A DNA stretch of 64,000 nucleotides from Luidia sarsii. Lineage: Eukaryota > Echinodermata > Asteroidea > Paxillosida > Luidiidae. The notes below the pieces were generated by a model. The model ran no database searches, was not told where the DNA came from, and worked only from the letters and a program-made list of their open reading frames with translations. Location: NCBI GenBank assembly GCA_949987565.1, contig OX465107.1:23944149-24008148 (forward strand), read 5' to 3'. A program made the translations under genes and the position numbers. How positions within the stretch are numbered: position 1 is the stretch's first letter; the number at the start of each line of letters is the position of its first letter. Shown here piece by piece: positions 28,086 through 64,000 of this stretch.

Positions 28086-36067
<7,982 letters not shown>

Positions 36068-52100: not shown

Positions 52101-55100
52101 AGCCCGTACGAGTCTGTCCACTTACGATGCTCCGACGCCATTTTGTTATTCTTGTCGACCACAAACTAAAACTGAAAACACCGAACTCCCTTTTAATGTC
52201 GCTTTTGTATTTTGTTTCCTTTCAGGTGCCTGTCCTGGCTGTAGTTAATGGTGAGTTGCGTGAATGTGGTGAAAACCTTAGACATTCCCGATTGTGGTCA
52301 ATGTCACCTGTAATTAATGAGCTCCTGAGTAAAGTTATATTAATCATACCTAAACAGGGATCCTCTGCACTGTACATAGCACTGATATGTATGAGTGGCC
52401 TAGAGATAAAAAAAAAGACAACTTCCTAATCAGAGGTCTTGTACACGATTGGTAACGTACCAAAACAGGAATCTTCACAGATTTTACCTATAACTCACAG
52501 TGTATTTTATAGTTATAGTAAAAACATATCGTTAATTCTTTTTTTGCCCGGAAGACTGAATATCGGTATCGGGGTGAGATCAGAATTCTTGTTTTCGAAA
52601 AAGTTTGATGCTGCCCCTCAAATTAAAGAAACAACGCCCAAATTAAAAAGAAAAGCACGCCTAAAACTAAGACAAAAGAAGTCTTATATTTTCATAGTCG
52701 TTTAGATTCTCGCTGTCTTTTGTACTGGCTTCTAATGTTGACACTAGTGTATTCCCTCTTTGGCATATTATGGGTTTTTTTTTCAATGTTGACGTTGCCC
52801 CGTTCTTGAGCTTAATGGAGAATGCAATTAACCCACAAAAAAATGTTGGCTTATCTGATTGGGTGATAAAAACAACCTACAATTACCTATGTGCTACCCA
52901 CCTACGAGTTTCATAAAGAGGGAAAAATCGTGGAATTCAGTGGTCGAATTTGCGTTCCCGCAACCCGCCATCTTTTCGAAGGGGCCGCCAATCATTGCGG
53001 GGGGTGTGACATCACAACGGAAAACTCCCGTATGGACCCGGACGGACGGATGTACCGCCTACTATATACTGCGTGCAGTTTGAATACACAGACTCGCGAG
53101 CTGAACGATGGTGTACGGCCATGTCATTCTTCTCCCAACAGTGGACAGCCTGAGCGTCTCCTTCAACGACAACAGCGACCAGATTGTGGAGTCTTCGACT
53201 GACCACCGCTTTGACTTCGACGTGACCATCAACCTTGGGCCTGGCGACGATGCCAACGAGGACGGCAACCTAGCCCGCTGGTCCGTAAGCCTGATGATGA
53301 CTTCGGGGGTCACCACGTGCGCAACCCCGGCCGTGACCCTGACACCTGCACAGGCAGGTGTGGCCATACCAGCCAGCGGTCAGGGGGTGATGAAAGGCGT
53401 GACACTGACTGCCGACCTGAGCGGGTGTCTGTGCTCGGCGACTGGGACCCTAGGACTGCTCGTCGCATTGAGCTCGACGTCGTATACGTTGGAAGGAGAC
53501 AAGTCTATCACAGCCCCTCTTATCTGCCACGGTAGGATTCCCTGACCACTAGTTCAAGCCGCTTAATTAGGAGAGACCCCATCCGGCACCCCCACTCTCT
53601 CCCTCCCCTCAGCTAGTCCGAGTAACTTGGACCCGACAAGTCACCCTTTTTTGTCTCGAATTTTAAAATTTGGAGGGTCGGGTGACTGAAGGGTCGAAGG
53701 AAACCCAATCCTACTGTTTAGTACTAACCACCAAAATATTTCGACTACCCATGGACTACCCGACCCTACAGTCACCCGACCCTCCCAATTTCAAATTTTG
53801 ATAAAAAAAGGGTGACTTGTCGGGTCCAAGTTACTCGACTACTGGCACCACCACTCTCTCCCTCCCCTCAGCTAGGTAATACTAGCAAATGGTGACCCCA
53901 GCAAAACGAGAGAACTGATCACTCATCACACCACAGCGTCAGCAAACTTGTTTCTAGTCTACTCTCTCTCTCGCTCTCTCTTTTATAACCCTTTTTGACA
54001 TTCTCAAAGCATCATGGGTATAGATGACAAACTCGCCGTATTTTCATGACACAACTCTAATTTTAATCGCATAACTTCTTTTTTTTTCTCCAAAAAGTAG
54101 ATGGAGTTCAGAAATGAAACTTACACAGAATGTTCGTCCAGATACCAGCAACAAAACATATTTTTTGTTGAGACGTTCATTTGTTAGTTTCGGGGAAATC
54201 AGTGAAAATTCCCTTGGTGACAGGATGGCAAACGAGGTGCGTGCATCCAGCTGCGCGCAGGCATACACAGCGCGCCGCTAGCTGTATGTGGTCACTGCAT
54301 TTCCATCCAGTCACCAACGGAATCCCCACTAATTTCTCCGAAATGACCTACTCAGCGTTTAAAATATAATAAAAATTTAGTGGGGATTCCATTGGTGACT
54401 GGATGGAAATGCAGTGACCACATACAGCTAGCGGCACGCTGTGTATGCATGCGCGCACCACATTTGCCATCCAGTCACCAAGGGAATTTTCACTGATTTC
54501 TCTGAAACTAACCACTGAACGTTTCAACAAAAAATATGTATTGTTGCTGGTATCTAGACGAACATTCTGTGTGAGTTTAATTTCTGAACTCCATCTACAT
54601 TTTGGAGAAAAAGAATAAACAAATCACGAACTTGAGTGCTTTGCCATAGAGTTGTGCGATAAAAATATGGCGAGTTTATCATATGCTCTTTGCGAATGTC
54701 GAAAGGTTTATTGCTTTGCTGTAATTCTTAGTAAATTCTATCAGCTGAAACTGTGTAACGAGAGAGGAATGAAATATTTCTCTTAATCTCTTTGTTCCCC
54801 ACATCAGAGAGAGCAATGTTGACTCTGGTTGCACTGCTAGTGGCCTTTAATCATCCCTCAGGGTCCCCTAATTGCACCCATACTGAGACCACACACTGCC
54901 AGAAGCATTTGAGGTGACTGTCTCTCTTCAGAGCCCCGCTCACTCTTCTCGGTCAAGCGATCATGTACACGGTGTCCCTGCAAGAAGCGACTCTACTGTG
55001 TGAAGCCACGTACAGTGCAAGCCTCCCTCTACCTCCATGCTTCATCTGACCAGTTTTGTAATCTTTTCCGCACACACACACACACACACATAAATAAAAA

Positions 55101-58100
55101 CAACCTTTGCAGGCATTGTGGGCTCCTCACTGACGCTGGTGACCAGCGGCGGACTGGTAGAGAACACCGACAACCAGGCGGTCAGCCTTCAGATCATCGC
55201 CAACAGCAAGACGCAGGGGCGCAGCGTGACGTGCGGCGGCAACTGCTGGGCCGTCACAGTCTACGCAGCCACGGGCACCGTGAACAGCCCCGTCGCCGTC
55301 CCGAGCACTGAGGTGGCTGCCACGCTGTCCTCGGGCACCGGCAGCTCATCCTGGGTCGCCGGAGGCACACTGACCCTCAACGGCATCTTGGCCACCTTGG
55401 ATCTGCGCAACAAGGGCAGCTGCAATGACCTGGACCTGATCTGCACCTCATTGACTCGGAACGCTGTCTCCAATCCCAGTTTCACCATAGACGGGACCAG
55501 CATTGTCTCCTGTGCCCCGGCCGTATGCACCGGTAAGGGCCTGTCCCCCTCCCATCTCCTCTCTCTCTCTCTCTCTCTCTCTTGTCACTTTATTATCACC
55601 GGTATTTTTTAAAGAAGTAAATAATGCCTCACAGTCACAGCAAATACATGTACCAAAAAGGACCCATGATGGGTATTACACTTACCAAGCATATGGGCTA
55701 GGCCAGGGAAAATGAAATGAGAAAATTGGCACCTAGTCCAAGTTGGCAATCTGTCAAAATGGCAACTTGCCTGAATTGGCAGCTTGCCCGAATTGGCAAC
55801 TTGCTCAAGTAGGCAACTTGCCGAAACTGGCAACTTGCCCAAACTGGTCATTTTTCACTGCTCACAGGCAACTTGCCCAACTGGTAACTTGCCCAGACTA
55901 GTCATATTGCACCAACAAGCAACTTGCCCAAGTTGGCAAATTGCCGAAAGTTGGCATCCTTGGAAAATGAAAGTAGCATCCTTTTTTTATGGGGGGGGTG
56001 GAAGAGTGAGAGCTTGAGTAATGTCTTGAGATGACAGCAGTAAATTGTGAACGAGCATGCAGGGTTTAGAATTAGACTTGTCTCCGTTAAGTGGGTTTTT
56101 TTTGGGGGGGGCATATAAATGAATTAACAATAACTATCAATTATTTCAAATTATTTTGAAAAATAATTATAATTACTTCAAATATAAGGTCCTACCTTGT
56201 GGAACTTAACTGAACCTTTCATCTGTAAAAAACAATTATCTTCTCCTTTGACTTATTTAAATTTCTATTATGTCTTGTCTCTGTGGTAGTCTTGTATTTG
56301 TTTAGTGTTTTGTAACCTATTGTGTTCTAATGTGTAACCTATGTATTCCTATATTTTGTAAAAGGGCCCACATTTATAAGCTCTGCTTCTTCGTGGGTGC
56401 CTTCACAGTATATCCTATATTCTATAATATTTATGATATTTAATATAATGAATAAATATCAATGCACAAATAAACACCACTTACAAATTGATGACGAAAT
56501 GAACAAACACTGATTTGTCGCCCGGCAGGAGTCGTGATCAACCACGTGCTTCCGTCCTTCACAAGTCCCACTGCCATCAACCAGGGGGAGGACAACACAG
56601 GCATACAGCTGACTGTGACCATCATGGCAGACAGCTCCAAGGCATCCATCTCCGGTGAGAGCCCCTATACAAGCCCTCGGGCCAAGTTTGCAGAGTGCTC
56701 GACTTTAAAAAAAAAAAATTTTTAGTAACCAATTAATTTGTGCTCTGCTGGTATTATACTCATACTCAAATAAAAGACACGGGAGGCCATTTTATTAAGG
56801 AAAAATCCTCGCTTTCTCGGATGGATGGCTGTGACCAAGTGACCACATGTTTGCTTCAAGCATGGAGGAATTCTCTCCTTATTCCTCCATGCTTCAAGTA
56901 AGTTTTTATGTGCCGAAACCCCCCCCCCACCCTCCCAGGATGGTTGGAAGATTCACGATGATGACCATCTGTTCTACATTCCAGGGCCTCCCCTGCTTGG
57001 TCATGCCCCCAAGAGTTCTGGACAGTGTCTCCACTGACCCACCCATAACTCATCAACTGTAGAAGATACTAATCAAATAGCTCTTCGCTGAGTATAAAGC
57101 CTTTTACCATTTAATTGGTAAAAGGAGATATCTTGCTCTTTTGAGCCATTTTGCCAGCCATCTTTTTTAGTGCAACATGGATTTCATTTGGCCTGTGATG
57201 CGCTGACTGTGCTACTTGGCAGCTTGATTCATAGACCAAGATGTTTGTTTACATCAAAACTTAATCATGGTGCTCTAGACATTAAGCCCTTTAAGAGAAG
57301 GATGCGGTAAATACAGGGTCTTTTCAGAAGTGTGGCTCTGTCTCCGGCTCTGGCTCTGGCTCTGGCTTTGGCTCTGGCTCTGGCTCTTCCGTCCAGCCGC
57401 GGAAAATACAAATGCGGCTTTGAAACAAAAAAGGATATTCCAATTAGCTTGCAAGTCATGGCAACTTTCTTTTACCCCTCACAGAACCAGAGATCCACCT
57501 CTTGGTTTGAAAGTCCAAAAACTGATATCTGTAAGTCAACAACTATGAATGTGTCGTTTTTTTGTGTGTGAATGGTGCTCATGAAATCTTCTCCACCGAC
57601 TTTTTGGCTCGCATTCTGAAGGCTCCAACCTGTGGTCAGCGAACGTCTTCGGCAATGCCGACTCTGACTGCTCAAATCCGACCCAGGTGCCTGGCACAGT
57701 CCAGCTGGTGGACGCCACCGACTACGGACTGGATGTCAACTCCAATTCTATTTGGCCACTGGTGAGTGTCAAACAAGCAAACACTCCCTGCTGAACAACC
57801 GGTCTCCTTACTCTTGTGTCGCGGGATCAGAATCGCTTTGATATCCAGGCTTTCACACTTTTCACATGGACTAAGTTCACTCTCATAGAGTAGCATACAA
57901 TGTACAGCATTTGTTTCTTTATTTGAAGCAGCATCTAGCATTCGTACTCTCTGTTATTCTTATCTCTCTGATCCTTTCCTAGCAAGAGGGGTCTTCATAT
58001 TTATATCACAAGAAAAAGGAGTTGGGGGTGATCTATAAATATCAATACTTAAAAGATGGAGGGCAGCGTGAGGGCTTGGTCAACAAGTTGTTGTCTCAAT

Positions 58101-61100
58101 GCAGGAGGTCTGGTCAGAAGGTTTCTAGGAAAGTGGCCAGAGTTTGGAATAGGTCCAGGATGATTTAATCTAGTGGGCTGAAGGTTACTTGGTAAATTGT
58201 AATACTGATAGGCCTACACAGCAAACTCGGCCCGGGCCTAGAGAAAAGAATCGGCACTAATTACTGTATGTGCTGCTGCTGAAAACAAACAAAGTTTATT
58301 ATGTGCGTGTATGCAATCATATCCAAACCTCAGTTTACACTGCATGTGATCCACACACAGCTGTAGCCATCTAGCTCACACCAATCGGTTGTTTGTATTG
58401 GAATGAAAACGGGGAGTCCACTTGAGGGACTCCCTTACCTATTAAACCTACAAATGCATATTTCTGTATACTATACCCTTAACGCTAGAGTAAATTAAAT
58501 ACCACACTAAGGGCGCCCCCATGAGCCCTGCTTCCGCCCGTCCATTATACAGTCGGGGAATATACAGCAGTTATTAGTGGTTCAATGCTTCTAACTGGTG
58601 CCCCTACCCTGGCAAGGATTGTTGACTATAAGGGAAGGCCATCGTCTAAGGGTGATAAGAGGGCTGGTACATTTTGGTTAGATTCCCAAGTCAGTTTTCT
58701 GCCACTTTGTTTCAAATTTGAAAAATGTCAAAGAAAACTTTGACTGGACTTGAACCTGAGGCCTCTGGATTAACATACCAGCGCTCTTCCATCTGAGCTA
58801 TCCCGCCCTTAGATGGTGGCCTTCCCAAAAAATTAATGGTGTCCTTCCAGTCAAATTTTAGTTCCCAGGCAACTTTTCCTTTGTCTGTTTGACTTTGTTT
58901 CACTGTAATAACTTTGGTCCAATGCGTGTCCATCGTAGATCGAGGTCAGCCTCAATTTGGCCCAGCATAGCTGCAATGACGCCCGGTACATCTGCCTGGG
59001 GGTGCTGAAGGGAAACAACCCCACCCCGGACTTCACCTTATCCTACAGTCCCGAGTCCGCCAAGTACGGCATCATCCAAGTCTCCTGCACAGGTGCGAGC
59101 TAGTGGGCACATGTTCATTCCTGTCCGAAAATCACTCCCAACAGAAATATTTCTCAAAGGGCCAGACATTTGTGACCTGGCATATCATAATGAGGAATAA
59201 CCCCCACTTTTGAGATTTTGAGATGATAATGATGTGAAAGAGTGTACCAATAGCTTTCAAATGATATCATAGTTTCCTCCAATACATTAACTTTCCGAAA
59301 ATACAAAAAAAAAAGGAAATTGATTTTTAATTTAATTGAATTGAGAAGATACTTTGACTTTAGGCATTGTTTACTCGAAAAGTGTTTTGGTGGGATATTC
59401 CTCATGTCGCTGTGCCAGGTCACATTTATATCCTAGGCAATCCTTCCTGAAAGATCCCGAAAGATTCATTTTCTGTGCTTATCCAACAAAAGAAAGATGA
59501 CCAATGGGGAAGGTCCCCACCTCAGTCCTAGATAGCTCAGGTGGTAAGAGCATCTTTGGAACAAGTCATAGTCTGGTCAAATTTTCTATGCTTATTCCTT
59601 CCCCCCCCCCCTTGATGAATTGGTTTAAAAAATAACAACTCCCAGTCAGTCTTCCTGCCCTTTGTTTGAATGAAAGCATGAGACGATATAACCCTGTTTT
59701 GTTTCTCCGATTTGTTTCAAAAATTGATATAGGATTGACGGTGGACAGTGGAACTCTGACCGTGAATCCTGCCACACAGCTGGCTGCCTTTAAGGAGGAC
59801 CATGAGATCCAGTTTGACATCTCCTTCGACTCGACCGCCGGGAGCGCCGGCGTGGGAGGCTCGCAGCTGTGGGAGCTGGTCGCCTTCCCGGCCTTCAACG
59901 GTGACGGCTCTGGGCAGACAGGCTCCGAGACCACTGTCACCCTGGATATCTGTAAGTCCATCCATCAACCCGCACTCTCCCACAGTCTAGATACGCTGGA
60001 TAGTTGAACCCCTAAAAACCCCTCCCAAATCCTACAGAATCCTAGTTTCCTGCTGCAGGAATTTGTAGGATTTTGGGGGACTTGAGAGTTGATGCGTCGT
60101 AGGAATTTGCAGGATTTAGGGGCATAAGGCGGTTTTGTCACTGTAGGAAAATGCAAGATACGGGTTACTAGGCCCAATGTGATGGAGGATGATCTTGTAG
60201 GATTGGGGCTCCATGGGACAAACACCAAAATAGGATTTTGAAGGATTCAGGTCATGTGGTTATACAATTATACATTGTAATTGTAAAGTTTATTAGTCAC
60301 AGAAAAACAAATGAATTTTTTTTGTCCTTTTTCCCAAAAAAATTCCATTAAAAAATTCAGTGCAGGATTTTGCAGGATTCGGGCAGTGGCGCACAGCCAA
60401 CTGGAGGATTGTAGGATCTTGCAGGATTTGGGTCATGAGCAACAAAAAAGTGGGGGGAGTTTACTCTCTCTCTCTCTCTCTCTCTCTCTAGGTCCTTTTC
60501 CACTACAAAAATAATTGAATACTTTGAATCGCGAATCAAAAAGCGGGTGTTTTTTTTGTCGTGTCCACACAGGGCACAAAAATTGCGTCGCAAATAATCA
60601 CGAGCCGATTGTGGTAAGCAGTTGTGTGTCCTTGAAAAAAGAAAGAAATGTAGCCGCAAACTTCAAAGAACGGTGAAGCTTGGATCAAAACATCACTCTC
60701 TCTATCTCGAAATAGGCGATTCAACTGAAAACACCTGTCTTTTCCCTTCTTTTTGTGTGCGTCTGCAGCCCAGTTAAGCACCGGATTCCCCGGAGCAGGA
60801 GGCACGCTGAGTCTAAGCGGCCTGACAGCCACCCTGTCACTAGTCAACAACGCCTGCAATACTTACCGCTACCTCTGCGCCCGGCTCAGAAAGAACAGCA
60901 TGGCCAGCCCTGACTTTGTCATACAGCCTGCCCCTGTTGTCTGCTCATCCTTGCTGGACTGTCGAAGTAAGCTAAAGGGAACTACACCCCCCCCCTCCTC
61001 GCCCCTCCTCCAATTTCATGAAGCCTTAAAATCCAACGCTACCTGACTTATATAGGAGGGTTTGCGGTGACATCATGTATAAGCTGATCCACCACCGAGT

Positions 61101-64000
61101 CCAAGGCATTCTCCTGATGACGGCCAGAGCATACTGGTCGAGTTACCACTCAGGTTCTTTTCAGAACCACACCTCTTCTTTAAGAGACCTTATACACAGT
61201 GTCACCGCAAACCCTCCTTTATTGTTTCACTCACCATGCAAAGCCTTAAGTCTTAGTTACACGACTAGGTCAACTTAAGGATAGCTCCAAGACTAACCAG
61301 TTGGAAAGAGTTACAAAAGCTTTTGTAGCCACAACGACTCTGTCACATGCAAGGGATAATTCATCACCAGTGTTGCGATTGTTCATAATAGAACTGGAGT
61401 GTGCCGTCATCGTTTGTGATTGATTGTCAGTTGGGATGAGTTTGGTGGAAATGACAACCAGTCCTCTGGACAGAATGCCAAATGCTCCTGTATTGCCAAC
61501 AGTTTCGCACGCTAGTCTCATAGGTGCTTCGCGGATATCACACACAGTGACCTTCCCAAAGTTGCTGATTATCTTTGCTTGGGCTGTGGGCCACCAGTCT
61601 GAAGCATTCAACCATCTTGCTGCCATAAGTCTCCAGGTTTCACACCCCCCCCCTCGTTGATGGCAATTAGCCCTAAACCTGGCTACAGCAATTTGGGGAT
61701 TTCAATCAGGCAAAGGATAAAAAAAAAACTTACTGGGAATTGTGTGTGTGTTTTTATATCAGACGTCATACTGATCAGCACCGAAGTCAGTGCCTCTGGT
61801 GGTCAGTCCCCAAATGGCCTGCCCCTTTACGAAGGTGTAGCCGACCAAGACGTCTACTTTGACGTTGTCATCCAGTCAGATGCCACAGCTGGCAGTGTAC
61901 CTAGTGGGACTGACCACTGGGCATTTGTGGTGAACCCGGGCTTGGTGTCAGCTGACCTGACCCAGGCACAGAAGGACAAGATGCTGACAGCTGGCGAGGA
62001 GCTAACCTTCTCCAGGGTCCAGGTAGGTGTGGCACTTCTCTTCCCTCCTCATCCCTTCCTTTTCCTTCCCTCCCTCCCCTCCCCTCCCCTTCAATTCTCT
62101 TCCCTTCCCTTCCCTTCCCTTCCCTTCCCTTCCCTTCCCTTCCCTTCCCTTCCCTTCTCTTCCCTCATCTTAACTTTCCTTTCCCTTCCCTTCCCTCCCC
62201 TCCCCTTCAATTTTCTTCCCTTCCCTTCCCTTCCCTCCCCTCCCCTTGCCTTCCCTTCCCTTCCCTCCCCTTGCCTTCCCTTGCCTTCCCTTCCCTTCCC
62301 TTCCCTTCCCTTCCCTTCCCTTCCCTTCCCTTCCCTTCCCTTCCCTTCCCTTCCCTTCCCTTCCCTTCCCTTCCCTTCCCTTCCCTTCCCTTCCCTTCCC
62401 TTCCCTTCCCTTCCCTTCCCTTCCAGTCCCGTCCCGTCCCTTCCCTTCCCTTCCCTTCCCTTCCCTTCCCTTCCCTTCCCTTCCCTTCCCTTCCCTTCCC
62501 TTCCCTTCCCTTCCCTTCCCTTCCCTTTCCTTCCCCTCCCTTCCCTTCCCTTCCCTTCCCTTCCCTTCCCTTCCCTTCCCTTCCCTTCCCTTCCCTTCCC
62601 TTCCAGTCCCGTCCCTTCCCTTCCCTTCCCTTCCCTTCCCTTCCCTTCCCTTCCGTCCCTCCCCTCCCCTCCCCTCCCCTCCCCTCCCTTCCTTCCCTTC
62701 CCTTCCCTTCCCTTCCCTTCCCTTCCCTTCCCTTCCCTTCCCTTCCCTTCCCTTCCCTTCCCTTCCCTTCCCTTCCCTTCCCTTCCCTTCCCTTCCCTTC
62801 CCTTCCCTTCCCTTCCCTTCCCTTCCCTTCCCTTCCCTTCCCTTCCCTTCCCTTCCCTTCCCTTCCCTTCCCTTCCCTTCCCTTCCCTTCCCTTCCCTTC
62901 CCTTCCCTTCCCTTCCCTTCCCTTCCCTTCCCTTCCCTTCCCTTCCCTTCCCTTCCCTTCCCTTCCCTTCCCTTCCCTTCCCTTCCCTTCCCTTCCCTTC
63001 CCTTCCCTTCCCTTCCCTTCCCTTCCCTTCCCTTCCCTTCCCTTCCCTTCCCTTCCCTTCCCTTCCCTTCCCTTCCCTTCCCTTCCCTTCCCTTCCCTTC
63101 CGTCCCTCCCCTCCCCTCCCCTCCCCTCCCCTCCCCTCCCCTCCCCTCCCCTCCCCTTCCCTCCCCTTCCCTTCCCTTCCCTTCCCTTAATTTTAATTCC
63201 CTTCCCTTCCCATTCCTTCCCTTACCCAAAATAATACAGTGTGAACGTAGCTTCATTGTACCATGATATGTAAAAATTCTATAACACATGATATTACCAT
63301 TATCTACAATCATTTGCCATAGCATCCCATATACCGGTTTATGGAGCTGTATAATATGCTCTATGAACTGTGGTCTATCGTTGTACACGTGATCTTATGG
63401 CTGCATCAAAGATTTCTCTCTCCCTCCTCCCTCACTACCACCCCACCCCCTTCCTCTTTGTAGGCCACTTTGGATCTGACCAACACGCATTGTGCCGACC
63501 TTGGGGATGTTTGTGCCGAGATCAGGAGGAGTGCAGATGACTCGCTCAACTTTATGCTTGCATCCAACACAGCCCAGAATATGGGATGCTTCACCCCTAC
63601 CTGTGAAGGTATGTCCGCTCCCCACCCACAACTCCTCCCTCCCATGCCCAACACCGGGACTAAGATACCCGATAAACGCCACCCAATGATCGTGACCTTT
63701 CCCCCCACAATGTTACAATTGGATGTCCATCATGGAAAAATTAACTTAATTTTGTTTCATTTCATCAAGTCTTGGTAAATTTGTTTCATGTTAATTAAGT
63801 TGCATTTGCTATGAATCTATTTTTTTTTTCTTTTTAATTTTTTTTTTTTTACATTTTTTAAATTTTGGTTCATTTTGTTACATTTTGTTTTGTTTCCTTG
63901 CATTGTGCACTTCATTCCACCTCATTTCCATTTCCTTTTGTTTCCTGAATTTAATGTGGTCTTTTTCTTTCTTTTTCTTTTTTTCCCGCCCAGGTGTGGA
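43054..64000 (+). CDS. Modular secreted/surface protein, unknown family (partial)
   Basis: Exons: 43054-43119, 52226-52250, 53142-53531, 55113-55532, 56529-56654, 57622-57761, 58939-59092, 59733-59951, 60769-60966, 61763-62022, 63464-63608, 63994-beyond. All phases agree, giving about 716 residues before the edge. Residues 1-22 are a signal peptide. From 31 on come modules of about 130, 140, 140, 139 and 135 residues, with a sixth starting. Each has an N half around FDVxI...W.V and a C half with (A/V)(T/S)LxLxN..C....xxC, then an aromatic F.L and one or two cysteines before a Gly at the phase-1 boundary. Sizes suggest beta-sandwich domains, but I recognise no named family. No transmembrane segment is visible so far. 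Confidence 0.82.
43163..43400. mobile_element. AAGGCCTTTTCACAC-ended inverted-repeat element
   Basis: Ends AAGGCCTTTTCACAC and CGTGTGAAAAGCC enclose many ACACGGGTC/GACCCGTGT repeats. A mini-hairpin (43322-43352) is inserted inside it. Confidence 0.7.
43322..43352. mobile_element. Mini-hairpin element, copy 2, with 7-bp duplication
   Basis: A 31-bp hairpin: CATGGAGGAAT, a nine-base loop ACTCTTCTT-like, ATTCCTCCATG. It is flanked on both sides by GTCCAAC. Removing the hairpin and one GTCCAAC restores a continuous CCGTGTCCAACACGG, as expected of an insertion. Confidence 0.65.
43621..43743. repeat. AGTCCCACTTACTGG inverted repeat
   Basis: Left arm TAGTCCCACTTACTGG...CTAGGAGCTAAACGATTTGTGTG and right arm CACACAAATCGTTTCAGAGGAGC...CCAGTAAGTGTGACTA; 123 bp, noncoding. 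Confidence 0.75.
44242..44350. repeat. TGTCGACA palindrome cluster
   Basis: Five or six TGTCGACA-type sites (TATGTCGACATG, TATGTCGACATA, TGTCGACATTG, CATGTCGACG, GATGTCGACAG) occur within about 100 bases, an unusual clustering of an 8-bp palindrome. Confidence 0.6.
45376..45867. mobile_element. 492-bp foldback inverted repeat
   Basis: Arms match from AAGGCCGCCGTACACGAGAG to CTCTCGTGTGCGGCGGCCTT. They run through GCTCAGCACGTAGCTCACCG, CTTTTGGTGAGATTTCTGCC and GATGAAAACTCATCGTGTGC. The short centre contains C and A runs. Long near-perfect arms, no coding capacity. Confidence 0.85.
46380..46717 (+). mobile_element. Probable non-LTR retrotransposon 3' end
   Basis: Pyrimidine-rich sequence ending CTTGGCCGAATAAATAATAA with an (AAT)n tail at 46698-46717, the usual form of LINE-type 3' ends in invertebrates. 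The hydrophobic frame at 46327-46569 has no reverse-transcriptase signature. Confidence 0.4.
47526..47712. mobile_element. GGCTCAGGCTCCGG-ended inverted-repeat element
   Basis: Ends CGGCCCTTTTCCCAAACCCC and AAGCCTAAGCCGGGTTTTG. The interior GAAGCCTTTGGCTTCATG is related to the copy at 16649-16895. Confidence 0.75.
47733..47966. mobile_element. TGTGACCCGGCACAGC element, family B, copy 1
   Basis: 234 bp with perfect terminal repeats TGTGACCCGGCACA / TGTGCCGGGTCACA. The interior has AATATCCCACCAAAACAC and CTCAAAATCTCAAAAGTG. Other copies are at 50192-50563 and 59171-59424. Confidence 0.88.
48308..48432. mobile_element. Family D element, truncated copy 4
   Basis: Starts TATATAGGAAGGTTTGCGG and includes GAACCTGAGTGGTAACTCGA and TCTGGCCGTCATCAGGAG but lacks the right-hand end. 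Confidence 0.65.
48658..48893. repeat. 236-bp hairpin with arms of about 65 bases
   Basis: Left arm GCAGACCGTACCGACGTATG and GAAGCTCAATCCCCGAATAG, right arm the complement. The unpaired centre is about 75 bases. Confidence 0.8.
49851..50034. repeat. Pyrimidine-rich (CTCTCC)n tract
   Basis: About 180 bases, mostly C and T on the + strand, broken only by short mixed segments, with an irregular CTCTCC/CTTCTCTC motif. Confidence 0.8.
50192..50563. mobile_element. Family B element, copy 2
   Basis: 372 bp, same TGTGACCCGGCACAGC termini, in the opposite orientation to copy 1. It carries an extra segment around GGCAGGAACTTTACATTTTC that copies 1 and 3 lack. Confidence 0.85.
51002..51245. mobile_element. 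Family D element, divergent copy 5
   Basis: Ends GGAAGGCTTGCGGAGGACAC and GGTCACCGCATACTTTCC; the interior has GAGCCGGTAACTCAACGTTT and GTTGAGTTACTGGCTC. Confidence 0.65.
51722..52075 (-). repeat. Dispersed repeat, orientation 2
   Basis: The reverse complement of 41495-41870, with shared blocks AATAGCATCCATACGTTGTC, CCGCCAACCGAGTCTCGAGA and TTTCGCGAAAATGCAGCATT. Confidence 0.75.
52226..52250 (+). CDS. Modular gene exon 2: 25-nt microexon
   Basis: TTTCCTTTCAG|GTGCCTG...TTAATG|GTGAGT has good splice sites on both sides. It encodes VPVLAVVN and converts phase 0 after exon 1 to phase 1 before exon 3, which is exactly what the flanking exons need. It is the only evidence tying the signal-peptide exon to the modules. 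Confidence 0.65.
52251..53141 (+). other. Modular gene intron 2
   Basis: Contains a partial copy of the GAATGCAA hairpin element near 52821-52880 and a cysteine-containing frame (52891-53202) that runs into exon 3 in a different frame. No supported coding exon. Confidence 0.5.
53142..53531 (+). CDS. Modular gene exon 3: module 1
   Basis: One phase 1-1 exon of 390 nt. Runs from VDSLSVSFNDNSDQ through RFDFDVTINLGPG, ARWSVSLMMTSG and VTLTADLSGCLCSATG to ITAPLICHG. It lacks some of the paired cysteines seen in later modules and is the most divergent. Donor CCACG|GTAGGA. Confidence 0.82.
53615..53840. mobile_element. Family C element, copy 4, flanked by long direct repeats
   Basis: 226 bp with ends AGTCCGAGTAACTTGGACCC and its complement, in modular gene intron 3. 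A direct repeat of about 31 bases (GGCACCMCCACTCTCTCCCT and onward to CAGCTA) lies on each side, at 53585-53615 and 53844-53874. Confidence 0.8.
53991..54706. mobile_element. 715-bp foldback inverted repeat
   Basis: Arms match from GACATTCTCAAAGCATCATG to the complement ending GAATGTC. Blocks include AACTCGCCGTATTTTCATGA, GAACATTCTGTGT-type sequence, GTGACTGGATGGAAATGCAG and CACATACAGCTAGCGGC. Centre near 54370. Lies in intron 3. Confidence 0.85.
55071..55091. repeat. (CA)n microsatellite
   Basis: About ten CA units shortly before the exon 4 acceptor. Confidence 0.9.
55113..55532 (+). CDS. Modular gene exon 4: module 2
   Basis: A phase 1-1 exon of 420 nt, 140 residues. Reads SSLTLVTSGGLVEN, CGGNCWAVTVYAATG, GGTLTLNGILATLDLRNKG, CNDLDLICTSL, PSFTIDGTSIVSCAPAVCTG. 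Acceptor CCTTTGCAG, donor CACCG|GTAAGG. It has a CGGNC pair before the conserved Trp. Confidence 0.88.
55725..55955. repeat. TTGGCAACTTGCCCAA tandem repeat
   Basis: An irregular array of a 16-20-bp unit (GGCAACTTGCCNNAATT variants), about a dozen copies. Each unit holds a GGCAA/TTGCC dyad. Confidence 0.85.
56529..56654 (+). CDS. Modular gene exon 5: module 3, first part
   Basis: 126 nt, phase 1-1. Encodes VVINHVLPSFTSPTAINQGE and GIQLTVTIMADSSKASISG. Acceptor TCGCCCGGCAG, donor TCCG|GTGAGA. Confidence 0.82.
56861..56891. mobile_element. Mini-hairpin element, copy 3, with 7-bp duplication
   Basis: CATGGAGGAAT, loop TCTCTCCTT, ATTCCTCCATG, flanked on both sides by CTTCAAG. It lies in modular gene intron 5. 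The same structure occurs at 43322-43352 with a different duplicated 7-mer. Confidence 0.65.
57332..57390. repeat. (GGCTCT)n hexanucleotide run
   Basis: About nine GGCTCT/GGCTTT units starting from TGTGGCTCTGTCTCCGGCTC, similar to the GGCTCCGGCTC termini of the inverted-repeat family at 16649 and 47526. Confidence 0.9.
57622..57761 (+). CDS. Modular gene exon 6: module 3, middle part
   Basis: 140 nt, phase 1 in and 0 out. Encodes SNLWSANVFGNADSDCSNPT to LDVNSNSIWPL, with the conserved Trp. The acceptor CATTCTGAAG has a modest pyrimidine tract but fits the phase. Donor CACTG|GTGAGT. Confidence 0.8.
58733..58806 (-). repeat. tRNA-like sequence (probable tRNA-derived SINE head)
   Basis: On the minus strand it has an A-box-like ATAGCTCAGATGGAAGAGCG, an anticodon-like loop with GTT, and a B-box-like AGGTTCAAGTCC. 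The acceptor stem does not pair and the T-stem is mismatched, so it is not a functional tRNA. Confidence 0.45.
58939..59092 (+). CDS. Modular gene exon 7: module 3, last part
   Basis: 154 nt, phase 0 in and 1 out. Encodes IEVSLNLAQHSCNDARYICL, GVLKGNNPTPDFTLSYSPES and IIQVSCTG. Exons 5, 6 and 7 total 420 nt, the same as the single exon of module 2. Confidence 0.83.
59171..59424. mobile_element. Family B element, copy 3
   Basis: 254 bp with slightly decayed ends TGTGACCTGGCATATC and GCTGTGCCAGGTCACA, in modular gene intron 7, same orientation as copy 2. Confidence 0.82.
59524..59600 (+). repeat. tRNA-like A-box sequence
   Basis: TAGATAGCTCAGGTGGTAAGAGC matches a tRNA A-box. The downstream half is degenerate (CTGGTCAAATTTTC). 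Probably a SINE fragment. Confidence 0.35.
59733..59951 (+). CDS. Modular gene exon 8: module 4, first part
   Basis: 219 nt, phase 1-1. Encodes LTVDSGTLTVNPATQLAAFK, EIQFDISFDSTAGSAGVGGS, QLWELVAFPAF and TTVTLDI. Acceptor AAATTGATATAG, donor ATCT|GTAAGT. Confidence 0.85.
59990..60440. repeat. GCAGGATTTNGGG interspersed short repeats
   Basis: More than ten variants of TAGGATTTTGGGG / GCAGGATTTAGGGG / AATCCTACAGAATCC occur irregularly across 450 bases, partly in opposite orientations, followed by a (CT)n run at 60463-60490. Confidence 0.6.
60769..60966 (+). CDS. Modular gene exon 9: module 4, second part
   Basis: 198 nt, phase 1-1. Encodes GGTLSLSGLTATLSLVNNAC, NTYRYLCARLRKNSMASPDF and PVVCSSLLDC. 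It closely matches the C half of module 2. Donor CGAA|GTAAGC. Confidence 0.87.
61050..61226. mobile_element. Family D element, copy 6
   Basis: Ends TATATAGGAGGGTTTGCGGT and GTCACCGCAAACCCTCCTTT; the interior GAGTTACCACTCAGGTTCTT and CACACCTCTTCTTTAAGAGA is shared with copies 1 and 4. In modular gene intron 9. Confidence 0.82.
61763..62022 (+). CDS. Modular gene exon 10: module 5, first part
   Basis: 260 nt, phase 1 in and 0 out. Encodes VILISTEVSASGGQSPNGLP, VYFDVVIQSDATAGSVPSGT, DHWAFVVNPG and LTFSRVQ. Acceptor TTTTTATATCAG, donor CCAG|GTAGGT. Confidence 0.87.
62040..63200. repeat. (CCCTT)n pentanucleotide tract
   Basis: About 1.15 kb in modular gene intron 10, nearly pure TTCCC units. Higher-order blocks include the CAGTCCCGTCCC interruption at 62424 and 62604 and the GTCCCTCCCCTCCC interruption at 62654 and 63101. 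One strand is pyrimidine throughout. All long S/L/P/F and K/E/G/R frames here are repeat artefacts. Confidence 0.97.
63464..63608 (+). CDS. Modular gene exon 11: module 5, second part
   Basis: 145 nt, phase 0 in and 1 out. Encodes ATLDLTNTHCADLGDVCAEI, RRSADDSLNFMLASNT and MGCFTPTCEG. Acceptor CCTCTTTGTAG, donor GAAG|GTATGT. Confidence 0.87.
63994..64000 (+). CDS. Modular gene exon 12, start only
   Basis: TTTTTTTCCCGCCCAG|GTGTGGA. The bases complete a Gly codon in phase 1 and continue GV, as at the start of modules 2 and 3, so a sixth module probably follows outside the window. Confidence 0.6.

Follow-up and report, generated by a model that had tools for sequence, protein, structure and literature searches.

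The original descriptions of the SURF ('sea urchin fibrillar') module are said to be those of Exposito in 1992 and of Cluzel in 2001 and 2004. In the accessible parts of two papers (PMC2852846, PMC10817530), four-cysteine SURF modules are assigned to procollagen N-propeptides (1-alpha, putative long form; 2-alpha; 5-alpha) and to fibrosurfin. According to the accessible part of PMC10817530, SURF-containing molecules have also been suggested to contribute to the way in which echinoderm connective tissue varies its tensility; neither 'receptor' nor 'integrin' occurs in the main text of that review, as far as accessible. The R3 receptor phosphatases described in the accessible part of PMC5336234 include PTPRQ, which has WPE and inositol-phosphate activity, and a Ciona protein with WPQ. 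The window analysed here is a stretch of 64,000 nucleotides from the starfish Luidia sarsii. The mitochondrial contig of the genome fits this placement: its COX1 has AAA at sites of expected Asn and ATA at sites of expected Ile, as in the echinoderm code, and a large rRNA on the minus strand together with a mixed tRNA cluster ahead of cox1 fits the asteroid gene order, so that an echinoderm is well supported and a sea star likely on this evidence. We estimate with a probability of roughly 0.7 that the modules within the window open one giant single-pass receptor tyrosine phosphatase, in which about 23 SURF modules are followed by six or more FN3 domains, a transmembrane (TM) segment and one phosphatase (PTP) domain, and that its extracellular rod would meet SURF-bearing matrix. 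Module identity, exon anatomy and the FN3, TM and PTP domains of a membrane phosphatase gene can all be read in the DNA, and the gene model is such a reading only.

The window contains five homologous modules of ~140 residues each on the + strand. Splice-site reading retains the limits set by an earlier sequence-only reading, with the first module beginning at 53142 and the fifth finishing at 63608. Modules 4 and 5 are each encoded by two exons and module 3 by three (Table 1). The motif proposed in that reading (a strand, a Trp, G-x-L-x-L-x-G-x-x-A-T-L, F-x-L and a C-terminal Cys) is present in most of the modules, module 1 being without the second Cys, and the paired cysteines are usually 6-8 residues apart. 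The terminal Gly is also present; its codon is split across the junction with the following exon, and Gly is what this codon gives at all three SURF-SURF junctions that were read. Introns of the receptor hold long repeats, simple or of minisatellite type and open in several frames, at window positions 62100-63200 and at 74854-80160 and 106400-108600 in extended window numbering.

Table 1. Coordinates of the receptor features and of the SURF-COLFI arrays on contig C6. SURF positions on the receptor are in window numbering, those of the FN3, unassigned, TM and phosphatase rows in extended window numbering, and those of contig C6 in Mb.
Feature	Position	Strand	Remarks
SURF module 1	53142..53531	+	one exon, phase 1-1; without C2 and C3, two extra Cys
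SURF module 2	55113..55532	+	one exon, phase 1-1; AF2 pLDDT 87.6
SURF module 3 exon a	56529..56654	+	
SURF module 3 exon b	57622..57761	+	
SURF module 3 exon c	58939..59092	+	
SURF module 4 exon a	59733..59951	+	
SURF module 4 exon b	60769..60966	+	
SURF module 5 exon a	61763..62022	+	
SURF module 5 exon b	63464..63608	+	
SURF module 6 exon a, start	63994..64000	+	runs to 64221, past window end
FN3 exons	from 102073	+	six fn3 stretches pass (Pfam) in the hand-assembled part; at least six domains
Exon-like ORFs, class unassigned	near 111.3 and 111.9 kb		
TM segment DPWWFVYAFIPFIIVILIIAFIMCLCTC	114087-114170	+	hydrophobic, judged by eye
Tyrosine phosphatase exons, one domain	116513-121042	+	PF00102
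C6 SURF	25.90-25.92 Mb		COLFI at 25.875-25.878 Mb, same strand
C6 SURF	25.84-25.85 Mb		COLFI at 25.805-25.808 Mb, same strand
C6 SURF	20.34 Mb		COLFI at 20.390-20.392 Mb, same strand
C6 SURF	20.42-20.44 Mb		COLFI at 20.494-20.497 Mb, same strand

By sequence comparison the window modules are SURF modules, a known echinoderm building block, and the earlier view of them as an unrecognised family fails. A profile built from the five window modules matches all 13 modules of Paracentrotus lividus fibrosurfin (Q9GNU3; sequence E 1.3e-186), and none of the controls (200 shuffled versions, the reversed sequence, the EGF part) exceeds the inclusion threshold. With hhalign, the alignment to fibrosurfin reaches E 7.9E-23 when only the window's five modules are used and 2.6E-36 with 22 receptor modules. 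The reverse search is consistent with this, a fibrosurfin module finding window module 2 (E 1.8e-6) plus other modules of the array. The profile and HMM-HMM comparisons that had been proposed as a check thus lead to a described module, SURF. The absence of an assignable common family had been correctly noted: no Pfam match of the 11 modules scanned is significant, all having E 0.089 or worse, and the modules have no sequence match in the PDB. This silence of Pfam and the PDB is what a new module family would have in its favour; set against the 13/13 fibrosurfin match, such a family is scarcely conceivable. An FN3 identity was considered and rejected, as the same 11 modules have no Pfam fn3 match and hhalign of the 22 receptor modules against six FN3 domains from this gene gives 0.7, with a probability of 0.1%.

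Relatives in other echinoderms, which the sequence-only reading had proposed to seek, are found in proteins of Lytechinus pictus and P. lividus. A 1379-residue query returned one homologue, an uncharacterised L. pictus protein (E 1.2e-82), in which seven stretches match the module profile amid EGF, CUB and LDLa domains. The SURF-bearing part of this protein led in turn to the fibrosurfin of P. lividus. Protein searches with short modules gave no match, the tool perhaps comparing only proteins of similar length. The suggestion that the module is of a matrix type is also borne out, since SURF is the module of collagen N-propeptides and fibrosurfin.

Four cysteines and a tryptophan are conserved in the module. 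Across the modules compared, C1 is conserved in 67/67, C2 in 65/67, C3 in 61/66 and C4 in 61/61, and the Trp in 64/67. Exactly four cysteines occur in 20 of the 22 assembled receptor modules. Among the 61 modules that reach C4, 56 have four cysteines at the standard places; the remaining five all lie in the receptor gene, where m01, m03, m17, m18 and m20 have altered cysteine places and always an even number. Because cysteines are lost together, the sequences suggest that the disulfides pair C1 with C4 and C2 with C3. An AlphaFold (AF2) model of the module, from an input that included 30 modules of this genome, is a beta-sandwich with a pLDDT of 96.5, in agreement with the fold that had been guessed by eye and for which a prediction had been called for. 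SURF is accordingly modelled as a four-cysteine Ig-like beta-sandwich, with the Ig-like sandwiches of transglutaminase, CARDB, Spo0M and TRAP as close known folds. The Foldseek and VIA lists reflect the common Ig-like arrangement only, and absence of a family from them proves nothing.

The array continues well beyond the five modules that had been counted. The five-module profile was run on 3226 six-frame ORFs from 144 kb around the window, and 27 of these exceed the inclusion threshold. All 27 are + strand ORFs from the interval 53.1-101.7 kb, and 20 of them played no part in building the profile, which excludes chance. The array comprises about 23 modules (22 assembled, and m11 in pieces with its second part unplaced) and extends ~38 kb past the window, to 101720 in extended numbering. 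Nine modules are encoded by single exons and the rest have internal introns at varied positions. In all, 37 SURF exons were placed; their AG/GT ends (37/37) are by construction, splice sites having been sought because they fit, and the joins in modules 6 and 14 rest on weaker sites or lower scores. When splice sites were scanned, every one of the 23 module starts had its highest-scoring acceptor in phase 1. No further SURF modules were found upstream of module 1. The receptor modules are more diverged than those of fibrosurfin (mean identity 23.3% versus 35.0%), so their ligand may differ from that of fibrosurfin, and a tree of the modules is poorly supported.

The SURF array leads into the FN3 region. 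Between module 23 and FN3-1 lies a phase-1 intron of 352 bases (101720/102073), across which the joined reading is in frame, and downstream the phosphatase exons, once joined, match PF00102 over its full length (1-233/234, E 2.5e-74). For these reasons we read the locus as one gene. The alternative is two neighbours, a secreted fibrosurfin-like SURF protein and a downstream FN3-PTP receptor, with the fusion an artefact of reading DNA. Such a division would fit the company that SURF keeps elsewhere, with EGF, CUB, Kazal or collagen domains, and the failure of one strict scan to find a signal-peptide exon upstream of the array. It is nevertheless decidedly improbable, given two phase-1 exons so close together and in frame and a last SURF exon that terminates at a donor site. 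A single strand is used throughout, and when two echinoid SURF proteins were compared with 204 kb by tblastn, 141 of the 142 matches fell within the array, the other being a CUB match at ~152.8 kb.

Other coding segments flank the receptor. Two ORFs at window positions 28086-33395 match NAD-dependent epimerase (PF01370) and, with an adjoining ORF, resemble GDP-fucose synthase by eye. A downstream gene at 132900-153100 (extended numbering) has a CUB domain, and exons that look ADAMTS-like by eye only. At 144512-147642 in the same numbering, a reverse transcriptase, a weak Dam-like match and a tyrosine-recombinase ORF stand in a row, an element that we take to resemble the DIRS type.

The phosphatase domain departs from the usual sequence in two of its motifs. 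Its signature, HCGAGIGRTG, is read across a splice and has the Cys and Arg of HC-x5-R in place, with Gly for the usual Ser, which is also that of LAR. Its second motif, the loop that is WPD in LAR, is WPQ. By comparison with PTPRQ and its WPE, the WPQ loop leads us to predict either low catalytic activity or a different substrate. Among solved structures, the single-domain match that scores highest is PTPRB, at 231.6 bits, and LAR domain 1 scores 212.6 bits. The final exon terminates with KRRK-stop. In a genome-wide search in which 150 of 204 candidates were scored, PF00102 matches at the receptor span contig C7:24061853-24064449, equivalent to 117705-120301 in extended numbering. Among the matches listed from these candidates, there is no second PTP domain at the receptor locus and no PF00102 match on contig C6 or less than 250 kb from the SURF cluster of contig C21, and no SURF locus apart from the receptor on contig C7 has a phosphatase. 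Tyrosine phosphatase exons are clustered on contig C15 (0.7-18.5 Mb, densest at 18.3-18.5 Mb) and at C25:5.9-6.3 Mb, which suggests local expansion.

In the genome as a whole, the receptor included, SURF modules occur in at least 35 places at E <= 0.01 with module 15 as query and in at least 72 with a fibrosurfin module. They are clustered at the receptor on C7, at C21:12.29-12.31 Mb and at C6:20.34-20.44, C6:25.84-25.92 and C6:6.77-6.78 Mb, with a few single modules on C5, C12 and C7. There are 22 matches to COLFI, the C-propeptide domain of fibrillar collagens, and a COLFI on the same strand lies downstream of each of four SURF clusters on contig C6 (Table 1). These putative SURF-collagen genes are recognised from both ends, SURF and COLFI, with a triple helix expected between. 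The four arrays stand as two neighbouring pairs (20.34-20.50 Mb and 25.80-25.92 Mb). Contig C13 has further COLFI matches and, among the matches listed, no SURF. In the C21 cluster (12.29-12.32 Mb), SURF modules are followed by EGF exons, as in a fibrosurfin-like gene. At C6:6.766 Mb (in C6:6761001-6771000) a SURF module lies between Kazal domains, with further SURF downstream to C6:6782147; the accessible parts of PMC2852846 and PMC10817530 make no mention of this combination. Within this genome SURF thus occurs with fibrillar collagens, in one fibrosurfin-like gene, in one Kazal gene and, as far as seen only on C7, in a receptor.

The architecture of the receptor suggests a way in which it might act. 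The long SURF rod would reach into the collagenous matrix, where the ectodomain would bind SURF modules on collagen fibrils and fibrosurfin, their glycans or a shared partner. Binding, clustering or pulling under tension would alter the phosphatase, whose catalysis, given the WPQ loop, would be weak or shifted to another substrate. In its most specific form, this would be a cell-side receptor for the SURF-bearing matrix of mutable collagenous tissue, gripping the SURF coat of fibrils over ~100 nm and coupling the state of the matrix to signalling, perhaps by way of a phosphatase of the phosphoinositide or trapping kind; we regard so detailed a role as rather unlikely.

The rod could also be a passive spacer. 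Size-based sorting away from close contacts has been proposed for CD45, and 23 rigid modules, forming a rod inferred to be of the order of 100 nm, could likewise keep the phosphatase out of close contacts with no SURF ligand at all. The low mean identity of the modules would be expected if length and fold outweigh any one binding face. A spacer would, however, leave the choice of SURF unexplained in a genome that otherwise uses this module beside collagen and EGF domains, and we consider it possible but doubtful. The same divergence, together with cysteine changes that are limited to the receptor gene among the modules compared, would also suit a recognition receptor (immune or allorecognition) whose SURF modules would bind partners that are either foreign or self. 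This is improbable for a receptor with one SURF-PTP locus in the genome and no family, among the matches listed. Our preferred reading remains a receptor phosphatase whose SURF rod would meet SURF-bearing matrix.

The SURF module itself is known; what appears to be new, from the gene as read here, is a SURF array as the outer part of a cell-surface phosphatase. Among the best hits of searches in the open-access literature there is no report of a SURF-bearing phosphatase, and the Pfam lists of the two echinoid SURF homologues, the L. pictus protein and fibrosurfin, contain no PTP domain. A transmembrane phosphatase built from SURF provides a concrete candidate gene for how cells meet SURF matrix. 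The analysis also supplies a confident structure prediction for SURF, a predicted disulfide scheme and a sequence profile where Pfam, in the scans made, is silent.

Three described systems can be compared with the starfish receptor. The L. pictus protein (LOC129282010) is arranged as EGF, CUB, four SURF modules, EGF, three SURF modules, EGF repeats and LDLa; what it shares with the receptor is SURF, seven modules of which match the array profile, and its Pfam list has no fn3. The R3 receptors (PTPRB, PTPRJ, PTPRQ and fly PTP10D) likewise have membrane-proximal FN3 repeats, one TM segment and one PTP domain, whereas the starfish receptor has about 23 outer SURF modules, WPQ for WPD and HCGAG for the usual HCSAG. 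R3 membership was considered and rejected: the receptor has a single PTP domain, multiple FN3 domains and one TM segment, but its ectodomain is not composed of FN3 alone, some 23 SURF modules preceding the FN3 region. Fibrosurfin and the sea urchin procollagen N-propeptides have the same module, of ~140 residues with four cysteines, LW, C-x(6-8)-C and a terminal Cys, in tandem. Those named in the accessible literature are matrix proteins, whereas the starfish array precedes a transmembrane phosphatase, and it is longer (about 23 modules) and more diverged, with changed cysteine places in 5 of 22 modules.
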